Origin: Sulfolobus sp. S-194
Lineage (GTDB): Archaea; Thermoproteota; Thermoprotei_A; Sulfolobales; Sulfolobaceae
Length of the DNA stretch: 64,000 nt
Reading direction: 5' to 3'
Assembly (NCBI RefSeq): GCF_012222305.1
Contig: NZ_CP035730.1
Span: 372,001 to 436,000 of the forward strand
Numbering within the stretch: position 1 is the first letter of the stretch; each line of letters opens with the position of its first letter. Under the pieces are notes generated by a model. The model worked only from the letters and a program-made list of their open reading frames with translations. It searched no databases and was not told the origin of the DNA. A program made the position numbers and the translations under genes. Below, piece by piece: positions 26,464 to 30,545 of this stretch.

Positions 26464-26648
26464 ATAATGTTAATTCTCTTTCTTAACTTATAAGTATTAA
26501 GTCCTCATTTACCCTAATTTCCTAGTATTATTTTTATCAAATTCCTTATGTATTTCTTGTTAAATCAGCTAATACTAAGTTTTAAGTACTGGGTTCTCAA
26601 ATATTATCTAACAACTGTTATGAGTGTGTATGATAAAGGGATACTGGA

Positions 26649-26881
26649 CTGAATCCTTTTTTTATGTTAATAGAAATCTTTTTATATTCATTTATTTTAC
26701 ATTTTATTGATATAAAGATTATCTCTCAGACCGATGTAGGCTATGTCCAAAGGGTAATAGTGTAGATGTAAGCCCCGTGCCTTTGGGCTCTAAGGAGTCC
26801 CATGACCCACCTACTGAGGGTTAGGTCCCTACACTCAATCATGATTGAAGATAAAATGAGAAATGAAAGTGTAAAGACAAA
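26649..26881 (+). repeat. Structured repeat, copy A (candidate ncRNA with own promoter)
   Basis: About 230 bp homologous to 30182-30428 in the same orientation. Shared parts in order: CTGAATCC, a TATA box (TTTTTATATT, 26679-26688), ATCTCTCA-ACCGATGT-GGCTATG-CCAAA, GGGCTCTAAGGAGTCCCATGACCCACCTA split over 26784-26812, and a 3' inverted repeat GTCCCTACACT (26825-26835) with AGTGTAAAGAC (26868-26878). Copy A lacks the CCACCTA/TAGGTGG hairpin arm of copy B. The conserved promoter position suggests transcription from about 26710. No coding capacity is conserved between copies. Confidence 0.55.
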
Positions 26882-27380
26882 AGGTTATTTTTTAAATCCC
26901 TATTTTGCTGAAGAGTTGGAAAAGAGTAAGAATTTAGAGAACCTAATGAAATTCCTTAAGTCAATATCACATAAAGAGTTAAAGAAAATTTTTAGGGAAA
27001 CTATATATGAAAAGATGAGGCCCTCATAGATATAAATGCATTTATATTTAGAAAAGTAGGAAAAGTAAAGTTAGTATAGTAATACTGATAGAAATTATGG
27101 AATTGGCTTTAAGGAAGTATATTGAATATAATAAAAAAGTGAAAGATTAAGGGCTTTAGGTTATCCGAACATCGTAACCTCACTTCCGCTAATTATTGAT
27201 AAAATAGTTGAGTTAAAAGATAATGAAATACGAGATCTGGTTTATTACGTAATTTAGAGAGATCTAGATCTGCAGATGCCTACCTTGTGGTTTAAAGCAA
27301 GAGGTTTAAAATACCTAGAATTACCATAGATAAGGATTTCTAAAGAGGTAAGGATGAGATAGAAGTTATAGACTCGCGAA
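26826..27380 (+). pseudogene. Gene remnants next to structured repeat A
   Basis: A short frame from an ATG at 26841 gives MIEDKMRNESVK... ending MRPS at 27029, helical and charged. Beyond it, peptide-like pieces appear in changing frames with stops between them: ALIDINAFIFRKVGK near 27030, then ELALRKYIEYNKKVKD from about 27100, RALGYPNIVTSLPL near 27150 and DLDLQMPTLWFKARGLKY near 27260. The mixture of coding-like composition and frameshifts suggests one or two decayed genes; the parent family is not recognised (a toxin-antitoxin pair is a guess). A GTAGGAAGTT/AACTTCCTAC inverted repeat (27467-27502) follows. Confidence 0.4.
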
Positions 27381-27715
27381 TATTGTTATACATAGTTTAA
27401 ATAAATGTTATCAAATCCCTACTTTTTCTCCGCAATAAGTCACTTCTGTCCATTAGGAATGTGGAAGTAGGAAGTTAATGTTCGGAATTGTGAACTTCCT
27501 ACAACTTATGAGATAAGACCATATTTTTGTTGTAATATAAAATAACTTAAAATTAATAAAAAAGTGAACTTTACGCATACTCTATTATCGGAAAAATTTA
27601 TCAACTTAACCTGAATAGTTATAAATTGAAATCACGTAGGAAACTTTGAAACCAGAAACTCCTTATTTCTATTTACTGGTGACGATGAGATTACTTAAAA
27701 AGTCTTAAAAGTTCT

Positions 27716-28777
27716 TTAGAAATCATAAATTTCTTCAGCGTTTTTATAAAAGAATCTTTCCTTAAACACTTCTAAGTCATCTTCTGATAACAGATCTCTC
27801 TTTAAAAATTCTGACTGTAATTCCTCAAAACTTTCTTTGGCTAATTTTGCACCTAACCAAGCAATTTCTGGAATGTTAAACGCATCGGAACCATACAGTA
27901 CTTTATTAGCCGGTGATACTTCAAATATCTCTTTCATTACGTTGAATGTTGAAAGTGGTGCTAACGGGTTAAACTGTGAAATATCAAGATACACTGAAGG
28001 GAAAATGTAGCTCATCCATGCGGATTCCCTATGGTATGGATAGCCAGCGTGTACAAGGATTACTTTTCCTTCATATTTTCTGACAACATCAGTAAGGTAA
28101 GAGGGCCTTGATAAATCAAGTTTTATGTCCCTATCTCCAGCCCCAGTGTGTATTTGTACCGGTACTTTAAGCTCCTTAGCTATTTCTAACGTTTTACAAA
28201 CTAGGAAATCCCTAAAGGCTTTAGCTTTTTTACCAAACCAATCTCTTTCTCCGCTGTAGAACTCTTCAAAAGCTTTACTCTCATTACATGAAATTTTTAA
28301 CCCAGTTCTATAAGCTATAATAGTCTTAAAACCGGCATAGCCTATTCTAATCTTCTCCCTCAGAGTCTCTTCAAAATATTCTATTGCTTTATCAAAAGAT
28401 TTCTTAAATATTTCATCGTTTATAATCTTCTCTATCCTAAATAAGAGTCTATATTTTACTGGTGGTTCAATTTCTTTTTTTCCGAAACCTTCATCAATCA
28501 CTATACCTTCTATATTAGCATCTTGAAATAGGAATCTCATGTAGTTTATTGGGTCGTCCTTAATCATTCTGTTTCTTTCATCTATAAAATTCTCTCCTAA
28601 AAGTTTCTTCAATCTGTGTTTTAGAACTAGGAAAAATGGTTTTAACAAATTCATTGTAACTACATCAGCATTAATCTCTCCTTCAAGCCAACTTTCTGCT
28701 GATTCTAATGCTAAGCCCTTCTCATCTAGGGGTTTTACACTAAACCAGTGAGCATGGTCATCGATTACCTTAAACAT
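27716..28777 (-). CDS. Amidohydrolase (FluG N-terminal-type)
   Basis: About 353 residues of a metal-dependent TIM-barrel hydrolase. Metal ligands by motif: DDHAH near the N-terminus, QIHTGAGD in the middle, VHAGYP and YGSDAF toward the C-terminus. The ATG at 28777 (MFKVIDDHAHWF) is preferred over the frame start at 28792. In fungal FluG and nodulin-like proteins this domain is fused in front of a glutamine-synthetase domain; here the GS-like gene lies directly upstream and overlaps by a few bases, so the same partnership exists as two proteins. Substrate unknown; a gamma-glutamylated or amide compound is a reasonable guess. Confidence 0.8.
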   Translation of the reverse strand: MFKVIDDHAHWFSVKPLDEKGLALESAESWLEGEINADVVTMNLLKPFFLVLKHRLKKLLGENFIDERNRMIKDDPINYMRFLFQDANIEGIVIDEGFGKKEIEPPVKYRLLFRIEKIINDEIFKKSFDKAIEYFEETLREKIRIGYAGFKTIIAYRTGLKISCNESKAFEEFYSGERDWFGKKAKAFRDFLVCKTLEIAKELKVPVQIHTGAGDRDIKLDLSRPSYLTDVVRKYEGKVILVHAGYPYHRESAWMSYIFPSVYLDISQFNPLAPLSTFNVMKEIFEVSPANKVLYGSDAFNIPEIAWLGAKLAKESFEELQSEFLKRDLLSEDDLEVFKERFFYKNAEEIYDF

Positions 28778-30050
28778 ACCTATATACCTCATATTCCCAA
28801 TCTGTTACTAGACTTTCATATTCTTCAACTTCAGCCATCTTTACTTTTATGAACTCTTCCATAATCTCTTTCCCTACTCTTTCAATCAGTCTCGTATCCT
28901 TCTTTAGCTCATTAATTGCTTCTCTCAAGTTTCTGGGAATATCATCTATGTCTTTTCTGAAATATGCGTTCTCATTTACTGGCGATGGGGGTTTTAATCC
29001 TCTCTCAATACCGTCCATCCCAGCTTCAATAAATGCCGATAATAGGAGATAGGGATTTGTCGTTGGGTCTGGTACCCTATACTCTATTCTTCTATCTTGC
29101 ATATTCATCCCAGGATATGGTGTGGGTATTCTTAACATAGCACTTTTGTTATTGTAGCCATAGGTTATTTTAGTTGGTGCCCAAGAACCAGGAACAAGTC
29201 TTTTATAGGAATTTATTGTTGGTGCAGCTATCGCTGTTAATGCCTTTGCATGTTCAATTATTCCAGCTATGAAGTTATAAGCTAAGTCACTTAAACCGTA
29301 TTTATCACTGGGTTCGTAGAAAAGGTTCCTCCCATTTTTCCACATGCTAAAGTTTAAATGGAGTCCAGATCCAGCCAATTTATTAAATGGTTTTGGCATA
29401 AAGTTCGCTTCAATACCGTATTTTGACGCAACTTGTCTTGCAATTTCTTTAAATAGAATTACTTCATCTGCACTTCTCATCGCATCTTTATGTTGTATAT
29501 CAAATTCGTATTGTCCTGGACCGTATTCTTTTATAACACGTAATGGGATTATTCCTACACTTCCCGCAACTTTAGCAATTTCTGGGATTATTTGATTGTT
29601 ATAATAAGCCCTTGAGTCAAAGCATTTAGTATCATCATAAGGTTTTCTATCCTTAACGAGGTAAAACTCTATCTCAAATGAGGACCTAAACTCATATTCT
29701 CCGTATTTTTCTAATGTCTTTTTAAGAGTACTTCTAGGATCGTATATCCATGGAGAGCTATTTTTATAAAGATAGCATAACACTACTGCAGAAGGAGGAA
29801 AAATAGAGAGTGTGGATAAATCTGGTGTTAAGAAAACATCTTCATCTTGAGGACCGAAAGTGCCGTAAGGGGAAATATAATCCATGGGTGTAAAGCTCAA
29901 CATTGCCATTGTTAAACCTATCCCAGTTTTTATTAGGTTATCTACTTCATCGATGTAAGCACCTTTAGATCTTATTATGCCATCTAACCCTACCCATGTA
30001 AAACGTAAAATTTCTACGTTATTCTTTCTTAATAATTCGCTTACGCTCAT
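28770..30050 (-). CDS. Glutamine-synthetase-like ligase (GlnA/PuuA/FluG C-terminal type)
   Basis: The frame opens at 30152, but the ATG at 30050 (MSVSELLRKNNVEILRFTWVGLDG) gives the family N-terminus and 426 residues. Catalytic elements: SFEIEFYLV, GPGQYEFD, GSGLHLNFSMW, NSYKRLVPGSWAP and RIEYRVPDPTTNPYL. The PGxEAP motif has tryptophan instead of glutamate, and helper residues differ from true GS, which points to a gamma-glutamyl ligase acting on an amine rather than ammonia. Overlap with the amidohydrolase gene downstream implies a shared pathway. Flanking repeats A and B bracket the pair. Confidence 0.82.
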   Translation of the reverse strand: MSVSELLRKNNVEILRFTWVGLDGIIRSKGAYIDEVDNLIKTGIGLTMAMLSFTPMDYISPYGTFGPQDEDVFLTPDLSTLSIFPPSAVVLCYLYKNSSPWIYDPRSTLKKTLEKYGEYEFRSSFEIEFYLVKDRKPYDDTKCFDSRAYYNNQIIPEIAKVAGSVGIIPLRVIKEYGPGQYEFDIQHKDAMRSADEVILFKEIARQVASKYGIEANFMPKPFNKLAGSGLHLNFSMWKNGRNLFYEPSDKYGLSDLAYNFIAGIIEHAKALTAIAAPTINSYKRLVPGSWAPTKITYGYNNKSAMLRIPTPYPGMNMQDRRIEYRVPDPTTNPYLLLSAFIEAGMDGIERGLKPPSPVNENAYFRKDIDDIPRNLREAINELKKDTRLIERVGKEIMEEFIKVKMAEVEEYESLVTDWEYEVYRYV

Positions 30051-30181
30051 ATTTTTAATAACTCTATGGGAAATTATAAGCAATGATGAAGTATAAATTC
30101 TGAATAGTGATGAAGGTCTTGAGCTCTGAGGAACTTTCGTTCTTCGTGACATATTTACATTTGCGTAACTACGCTAAAAGG

Positions 30182-30428
30182 GCTGAATCCTTTTTCATGT
30201 TAGTAAAAATCTTTTTTATATCTATTTATAACAAAAAATTGATTAAGGATGATCTCTCACACCGATGTGGGCTATGCCCAAAAGGGTGAGAATGATTACG
30301 GAGATGAGGGCCTTGTGCTGTTGGGCTCTAAGGAGTCCCATGACCCACCTATCGTTAAGTTTGGTAGGTGGTTGAGGGCTAAGTCCCTACACTTAATAAC
30401 ATGAGTGAAATGAAAGTGTAAGGACAAA
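30182..30428 (+). repeat. Structured repeat, copy B (candidate ncRNA with own promoter)
   Basis: Fuller copy of the repeat at 26649. A TATA box TTTTTTATAT (30212-30221) sits some 25-30 nt before GGATGATCTCTCACACCGATG. Hairpins: CTCTCAC...GGTGAGA enclosing GGGC/GCCC, CCACCTA/TAGGTGG (30345-30351 with 30365-30371), and GTCC-TACACTT (30383-30394) with AAGTGTA-GGAC (30414-30425), one mismatch. The GC-rich, multi-stem body against an AT-rich background and a positionally conserved promoter argue for a structured RNA of about 170 nt or a non-autonomous transposable element carrying one. Not a tRNA, SRP or RNase P RNA. Confidence 0.55.
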
Positions 30429-30545
30429 CGGGTTCAATGTTAGTTCTATTAGTTAGGAGAAATAAATTGAATACATGTTGAATAATGATATTTACTAACT
30501 ATTATTATTATAAAATTTATTTGCTCAAATATCCAAGATTAATCT

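Follow-up and report, generated by a model that had tools for sequence, protein, structure and literature searches.

In Sulfolobales, the element SMN2 has been described as mobile, related to SMN1 (320 bp; PMC3718332), carrying small putative open reading frames (ORFs) and likely moved by the IS200 transposase (PMC3839810). The RNA-257 RNAs of S. solfataricus have been reported as intergenic, promoter-driven derivatives of the insertion sequence ISC1904 that are visible on northern blots, and the same report includes a locus, SSO1181-1183, in which a phosphate transporter has an ISC1904 insertion at its 3′ end (PMC3674436). For IS607 elements, a crossover at the dinucleotide GG is the established pattern (PMC10711439, PMC4058570). 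The present study focused on two repeats, copies A and B, in a 64,000-nt stretch of Sulfolobus sp. S-194 (NZ_CP035730.1, positions 372,001 to 436,000; the window, whose numbering is used for both copies), which were compared across a set of 41 genomes that included the strain's own (G000, 2.79 Mb). Both repeats belong to SMN2 by sequence identity, and the comparison makes it probable that SMN2 is a stand-alone gene for an omegaRNA (or right-end element RNA, reRNA) borne on IS607 ends, in other words a guide-only mini-element.

Copy A occupies 26648-26884 and copy B 30182-30431, with the right terminal GG counted in the family alignment. An earlier analysis of the letters alone (the sequence-only reading) had placed both to within 3 nt of these borders, and the TATA box, core and tail inverted repeat that it saw in common are real. 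It had also proposed counting further copies and building a covariance model from them. A search with copy B (E<=0.001) matched 16 of the 41 genomes, well above chance; its 13 matches in the own genome count copy B as well as fragments of broken copies. A covariance model made from 37 SMN2 copies found matches dispersed across 25 of the 41, including 15 in the own genome and at least 60 in Metallosphaera yellowstonensis (G020). The closest annotated records are the virus SMV1 (79.4% identity over 98% of the query), where the match is labelled 'MITE-SMN2, Sulfolobus miniature noninverted repeat transposable element', and the plasmid pMGB1 (79.2% over 97%), where the element is named SMN2 (PMC3839810). 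Judged by these matches, copies A and B are SMN2 elements of the kind already annotated in SMV1. SMN2 is not a miniature inverted-repeat transposable element (MITE) in the strict sense, as terminal inverted repeats (TIRs) and target-site duplications (TSDs) are absent at its ends. The repeats had no Rfam match at the gathering threshold in the window, nor at E<=1 in five loci, a result that counts little because Rfam 15 may not hold such an RNA.

In several genomes, the query splits into two same-strand matches, one to its left 55 nt and one to its last 130 nt, with about 1.8 kb between them, which points to the origin of SMN2. Autonomous elements with the left and right ends of SMN2 measure 1911-1946 bp (eight loci), the ends being common to SMN2 and loci L060-L067 and L069. 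An intact tnpB element sharing the ends of the repeats, which the sequence-only reading had named as something to look for, was found: it encodes an IS607 TnpA and a TnpB, and the 3′ end of tnpB is the RNA core (nt 126-257 of the copy B query). The TnpA has 213 aa and matches the IS607 transposase model NF033518 with 249.5 bits against a cut-off of 110 (E 1.6e-74), and the 412-aa TnpB matches PF07282 and TIGR01766, both above cut-off. Residues D183, E267 and D357, which by their motifs would be those of RuvC, are invariant in 11 of 11 aligned TnpB sequences. A Foldseek search with the predicted TnpB structure returned Cas12f, the TnpB of the IS607 element ISFba1 (8iaz) and ISDra2 TnpB (8h1j, 8exa) at E values of 8e-16 to 1e-10; the TnpB sequence itself matched no PDB chain at E<=0.001. 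SMN2 is roughly 215-285 bp long, without tnpA, most of tnpB and most of the spacer between hairpin P1 and the scaffold, and retains the left-end promoter, P1, the omegaRNA scaffold made of the tnpB 3′ end and right end, and exact GG-bordered ends. On the evidence of these ends and of the GG junction, it is a non-autonomous derivative of IS607.

The mini-elements begin with the autonomous left end, in which tnpA starts at the 62nd nucleotide (two autonomous copies measured). They have the same TATA box and, at the distance of the tnpA start, the region just before P1, followed by P1, P2, P3 and P4 in that order. All features given for the two copies are on the plus strand. In copy B, the left GG crossover dinucleotide, which is also the predicted target-adjacent motif (TAM), lies at 30180-30181 by the family counts; the left end and promoter at 30182-30242, with a TATA-like box at 30212-30221, align with the autonomous left end, where that TATA precedes the start of tnpA. 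Hairpin P1, the 5′ RNA domain, spans 30254-30292 and is defined by covariation and by homology to the tnpB zinc-finger codons, and the scaffold follows with P2 (30308-30328), the length-variable P3 (30345-30371) and P4, the right-end hairpin (30383-30425), which are helices 3, 4 and 5 of the covariation analysis. The right GG is at 30430-30431 and the predicted guide is host DNA from 30432 on, by analogy with IS607 reRNA (PMC10711439). The RNA of copy B (30240-30440) folds at -66.8 kcal/mol (z -2.98), better than 200 of 200 shuffles, and keeps 37 of 39 pairs.

Copy A has the same plan in a decayed state, whereas copy B is nearly intact and well folded. From the family ends and alignments, its left GG lies at 26646-26647, its left end and promoter at 26648-26708 (TATA-like box about 26679-26687) and its right GG at 26883-26884. 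The mini-element alignment (A1) places a broken P1, with the 3′ arm deleted, at 26722-26765, P2 at 26770-26790 and P4 at 26825-26878, one arm of P3 being lost as well. Of 24 scorable pairs 20 are kept, 15 of 39 having been lost to gaps, and the fold (z -0.73; 47 of 200 shuffles equally good) argues against a stable structure for this copy.

In the autonomous elements, the P1 hairpin is written inside the zinc-finger codons of tnpB, about 240 nt from the right end. Homology of P1 by local alignment, against shuffles that preserved base composition only, exceeded all 300 shuffles for five of the seven elements tested (L060, L061, L062, L063 and L067) and was weaker for L069 (7 of 300 as good) and L065 (72 of 300, with the best match elsewhere), although alignment A3 places the hairpin at the same position in these two as well. 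All 17 aligned autonomous-type 3′ ends carry P1 within their tnpB DNA. In these 17, the spacer between P1 and P2 measures 77 nt and includes the codon for the third invariant Asp; in each of the 37 mini-elements it is 13-19 nt long.

The fold is conserved on both sides of this comparison. The mini-elements were represented in A1 by 37 of 53 RNAs, hand-picked to thin out mostly near-identical copies, after L003, L009, L113, L114, L127, L128 and the G019 set had been excluded ahead of the 53. In these 37, 94.9% of cells are paired, against 33-45% in slid controls. Their covariation score of 0.142 was reached by none of 500 shuffles, which gave 0.118 +- 0.004. Ten pairs, in 29 cells, show changes on both sides; covariation is strongest in P1, where six of the nine pairs of the outer helix have changed on both sides. 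The 17 autonomous-type ends have 98.0% of whole-fold cells paired (34-46% in slid controls) and both-side changes at six pairs (1 of 500 shuffles as high). Shared ancestry inflates the covariation counts in both sets. Alignments A2 and A3, like the nearest-scaffold test below, leave out L070; A2 and A3 also leave out L066, whose 3′ end coordinates equal those of L065, and A3 leaves out L257, one of six G020 copies read, while some of its rows (L072, L076, L078) are broken tnpB genes. Compensatory base changes, whose absence the sequence-only reading would have taken as telling against an RNA, thus exist in mini-elements and autonomous-type ends alike. Together with a scaffold that runs from the tnpB 3′ end through the right end up to the element boundary, this conserved fold makes the SMN2 RNA, by descent and structure, an omegaRNA as far as comparison can define one.

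The proposal of that reading that the repeats are an RNA gene family, or a non-autonomous element encoding such an RNA, is upheld by the autonomous relatives with the same ends and by the compensatory changes. Its suggestion of an omegaRNA-like role appears largely right, because the fold covaries and the same layout of promoter, P1 and scaffold recurs; descent from the tnpB 3′ end and the structure are the parts that stand, and a role as a working guide is a prediction.

A number of observations weigh against reading SMN2 as a guide-RNA gene. TnpB scores 88.3 with the guided-TnpB model NF040570, below its cut-off of 100; its predicted structure is modest in quality (mean predicted local distance difference test (pLDDT) 74.8, predicted template-modelling score 0.46), and full-length TM-scores against TnpB and Cas12f structures are only about 0.3-0.4. 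The autonomous-type ends show no more pair types than shuffles do (192 of 500); in the mini-elements, the -1 slid control also reaches ten both-side pairs, in 12 cells as opposed to 29; and the consensus from RNAalifold alone, with decayed copies included, is weak: -14.2 kcal/mol and 23 pairs, 4 of which have both-side changes. Among mini-elements the C-terminal frame of tnpB is still open in 36 of 59 (autonomous-type copies: 17 of 19), and their conservation may thus in part reflect recent origin. The mean distance of mini-elements to their own autonomous element is smaller in only three of eight genomes. The own genome adds two points on the same side: its four IS607 TnpAs are all of subfamilies other than that of SMN2, and no cognate TnpB was found in it, the best being 32% identical.

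A rival reading is that SMN2 is a plain internal-deletion derivative, in which a functionless RNA part and promoter survive as overlap with the right and left ends. IS607 ends must stay for transposition, the own-genome copies have decayed where TnpB is lacking, and with the old frame open in 36 of the 59 copies the elements may be young. Deletion alone is nevertheless an unlikely explanation, since P1 lies far inside the right end, yet several lineages have retained it and shed the neighbouring spacer along with the remainder of tnpB, and since it is in the P1 of the mini-elements that compensatory changes are found. Two further comparisons gave weak or confounded results. For 17.25 of 50 mini-elements (ties split) the nearest autonomous scaffold is in the same genome (label-shuffle mean 8.4, p 0.018), a weak hint that the mini-element scaffold tracks the resident autonomous element. 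The paired fraction is 0.964 in genomes with intact TnpB (24 copies) and 0.906 in those without (11 copies; p 0.032; SMV1 and pMGB1 copies excluded), a contrast confounded by age, with left-end divergence of 0.137 and 0.170, respectively.

The ends of the elements are of IS607 type. In 78 left and 86 right ends, autonomous and mini-elements pooled and two mis-set rows included (L003, right end on the wrong strand, and L113, with a replaced left end), the left flank has G at -2 in 72 and at -1 in 74, and the right-end GG positions have G in 78 and 84; beyond the GG, flanks show a weak bias at most. An insertion shared by two genomes (L108 in G003 and L118 in G002) has an orthologous empty site in the own genome with one GG in the same context. 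This clean empty site was taken from another locus because the intergenic DNA at both window sites is too diverged to provide one. The sequence-only reading had considered the tail hairpin a possible transposon end; the ends, IS607-type GG junctions that lack TIR and TSD, do not support a classical TIR there. The many dispersed copies, and their absence beside orthologous genes, are consistent with mobilisation by TnpA in trans. By analogy with IS607 systems, the nucleotides after the right GG are predicted to be the guide, and the GG-type motif the TAM. Two copies show unusual ends: in L003 (G000:C1 1581767-1581998), the right-end hairpin has its loop in the opposite orientation to that of other aligned SMN2 copies, as if recombined through the hairpin arms, and L098 (G020) is flanked on its left like L094 and on its right like L083, which could be recombination between SMN2 copies or an assembly artefact of a small contig. 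L008 (G000:C1, about 1936270-1936490) holds part of an SMN2 right end, and at its border a GACGACACTATC-type inverted repeat is visible by eye, which suggests that another small element inserted there.

A life cycle can be proposed for SMN2 as a guide-only element. The left-end promoter would transcribe an RNA of roughly 190 nt that ends in flanking host DNA, which would serve as the guide. A resident IS607 element would supply TnpA in trans, giving excision and insertion of the mini-element by GG crossover. TnpB, also acting in trans, would bind the mini-element RNA and, guided by it, cut beside a GG-type TAM, either at the donor site after excision or in an allele that lacks the element; repair after the cut would restore the mini-element. 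Transcription of SMN2, binding by TnpB, guide use, the TAM and retention by the cutting of empty sites are each predicted steps of this scheme.

Elements of the same layout occur in other lineages. In a genome of 3.03 Mb (G016), an IS607 element (L197) converges on a truncated transporter frame, a major facilitator superfamily protein (PF00083 and PF07690 above cut-off) whose best NCBIfam model is the phosphate:H+ symporter TIGR00887, below cut-off; the TnpA of L197 matches the PDB entries 3ilx ('First ORF in transposon ISC1904'; 254.9 bits) and 3lhf (265.1). Since this locus fits the published SSO1181-1183, we infer that G016 is S. solfataricus or close to it. In this and the own genome there are 37 ISC1904-type matches, and among 11 non-autonomous-looking ones that were read, the ISC1904 left end precedes P1 and scaffold in four (L222, L224 and L230 in G016, L212 in the window's genome) and is missing from seven, among them L226 (spacer 11 nt) and L214. 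The spacers of the four are 10, 9, 28 and 9 nt, respectively, compared with 67 nt in six of six autonomous copies. L214 is a fragment that lies, within L253 (G000:C1 2175733-2176386), about 230 nt from the best-folded SMN2 copy of the own genome, L002, in opposite orientation. Among 12 loci read in G019, three (L129, L131, L140) retain the first tnpA codons; after these comes a P1 whose AACCC/GGGTT arms are those of the autonomous elements, and a short spacer separates it from the scaffold. In L138 the outer 3′ arm of P1 is gone, and other loci of 309-331 nt, near the length of SMN1, have a longer spacer that holds one more hairpin. In G031 both matches read (of 5), and in G038 six of the eight read (of 31), have in common, genome by genome, a block upstream of the scaffold, one of the six (L275) having lost most of P1 and L278 being an autonomous copy. 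The two G031 elements (L269 and L270; C1 197140-197347 and 1482562-1482769) are nearly identical and would be stand-alone guide-RNA elements; no relative of this TnpB and no IS607 TnpA was found in G031 at E<=1e-20. The lineages with promoter, P1 and scaffold apparently arose independently, because their left ends differ.

These lineages suggest a more general proposal, that across the order IS607 transposons have repeatedly spawned guide-only mini-elements, SMN2 and RNA-257 among them, which parasitise TnpA for movement and TnpB for retention, with P1 being a required 5′ domain of the guide RNA that the coding gene has hidden. On this view, the antisense RNA described first from a hyperthermophilic archaeon would be an omegaRNA that stands alone. 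This is put forward tentatively, at slightly less than even confidence. RNA-257 has also been seen in another light: transcripts of this sort could be regulatory, acting in antisense on host or transposon mRNAs or titrating TnpB, and not be guides. RNA-257 has been reported to lower the mRNA of the phosphate transporter that carries ISC1904 at its 3′ end (PMC3674436), a description that the L197 locus fits. That complementarity, however, stems from one insertion in one species, and most copies retain the scaffold and the GG next to the guide, so regulation seems an improbable account of SMN2.

The sequence-only reading found no reading frame in the repeats, which is not strictly true: copy B holds a 51-codon relic frame (30249-30404) across P1 and in frame with the tnpB 3′ end, and a frame from a start near the RNA 5′ end to the tnpB stop is found in 34 of 58 copies. 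In P1, substitution rates at codon positions 1, 2 and 3 are 0.139, 0.118 and 0.088; the third position varies least, the reverse of protein selection. The scaffold rates are 0.073, 0.084 and 0.099, the third position being slightly more variable. That SMN2 is a gene for a micro-protein of about 51-66 aa, starting near the transcription start and ending in the TnpB C-terminus, is thus hardly credible despite these frames and the small putative ORFs noted for SMN2 (PMC3839810), given the P1 rates, compensatory changes that alter amino acids (DVGYAQ to DVDYVQ), the absence of the frame in the well-folded copies L002 (39 of 39 pairs), L089 (38 of 39) and L123 (36 of 36 scorable), and a TnpB C-terminus (residues 374-412, encoded by the RNA scaffold) that is modelled at pLDDT under 50.

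No cognate TnpA or TnpB was found in the own genome, which probably makes orphans of copies A and B. Of its four IS607 TnpAs, three adjoin TnpBs that are 30-32% identical to the cognate TnpB, and the fourth (L202) is of ISC1904 type; this autonomous L202 and the stand-alone L212, likewise of ISC1904 type, could still work together. SMN2 and an intact cognate TnpB occur side by side in the genomes G020 and G002. Between copies A and B lies a pair of genes on the minus strand (27716-30152), a FluG-type amidohydrolase (the name FluG comes from the sequence-only reading) and a glutamine-synthetase-like protein, which conserved synteny identifies as a bystander. The pair is adjacent in G003, G002 and G001 with identities of 96/90/86% and 94/92/86% for the two proteins, and it is conserved in these genomes and in G011 without any neighbouring copy of the repeat. 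The flanking of the pair, to which the sequence-only reading gave weight, is accordingly coincidence, and a composite transposon around FluG is ruled out. About 50 nt before copy B, and separate from the repeats, an Rfam match to the C/D-box sRNA sR14 (30079-30131, plus strand; 38.5 against a gathering score of 38) lies antisense to the 5′ part of the glutamine-synthetase-like ORF. The stretch from copy A to the gene pair (about 26885-27390) aligns with G002 at 76% from the right border of the copy and looks relic-like by eye.

If the reading of SMN2 as a guide-RNA gene is correct, a Sulfolobales element that had been annotated and left unexplained gains a mechanism and a link to TnpB, the ancestor of Cas12. 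Elements stripped to this extent could borrow the RNA-guided nuclease of another element. In several genomes there are more RNA-model matches, autonomous copies among them, than nucleases: G020 has at least 60 and 8 nearly full TnpBs, G038 has 31 and 5 TnpB matches. One nuclease may therefore be shared by many guides. That P1 and the scaffold both persist while the stretch between them was shortened repeatedly suggests that a 5′ domain of the guide RNA lies concealed within coding sequence. Those Sulfolobales that are genetically tractable would allow a direct test of the guide-RNA reading.

Among known systems, palindrome-associated transposable elements (PATEs) and other non-autonomous IS200/IS605 elements are also derivatives of TnpB-bearing transposons; their ends are those of IS200/IS605 (HUH TnpA), not of IS607. 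In titles, abstract openings and excerpts of the openly licensed PMC literature, no link was recognised between omegaRNA and either SMN elements or IS607 mini-elements. The parts are known; what appears new is the view that SMN2, together with RNA-257-like elements, derives from IS607 as a guide-only unit with a promoter and a P1 domain. Compared with the published description of SMN2, the ends seen here match IS607 and not IS200, and the element is read as a guide-RNA gene. RNA-257_1-4 resemble it in being intergenic and promoter-driven, with a core from the distal part of an IS607 transposase (TnpB) gene (PMC3674436), and matching mini-elements occur in G016 and the own genome. They differ in belonging to another IS607 subfamily and in having been published as antisense regulators with promoters that arose by small changes (PMC3674436), whereas the ISC1904-type mini-elements found here have the ISC1904 left end itself in front, RNA-257 being compared by description only. 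The reRNAs of the bacterial IS607 elements ISFba1 and ISXfa1, set beside SMN2 by description of their layout, share with it a guide RNA from the 3′ side of tnpB and the right end, the GG crossover and a G-rich TAM (PMC11061315, PMC10711439). There the reRNA belongs to an element that encodes TnpB, while the predicted SMN2 RNA is free of tnpB, lies under a left-end promoter and has the additional upstream P1 domain.

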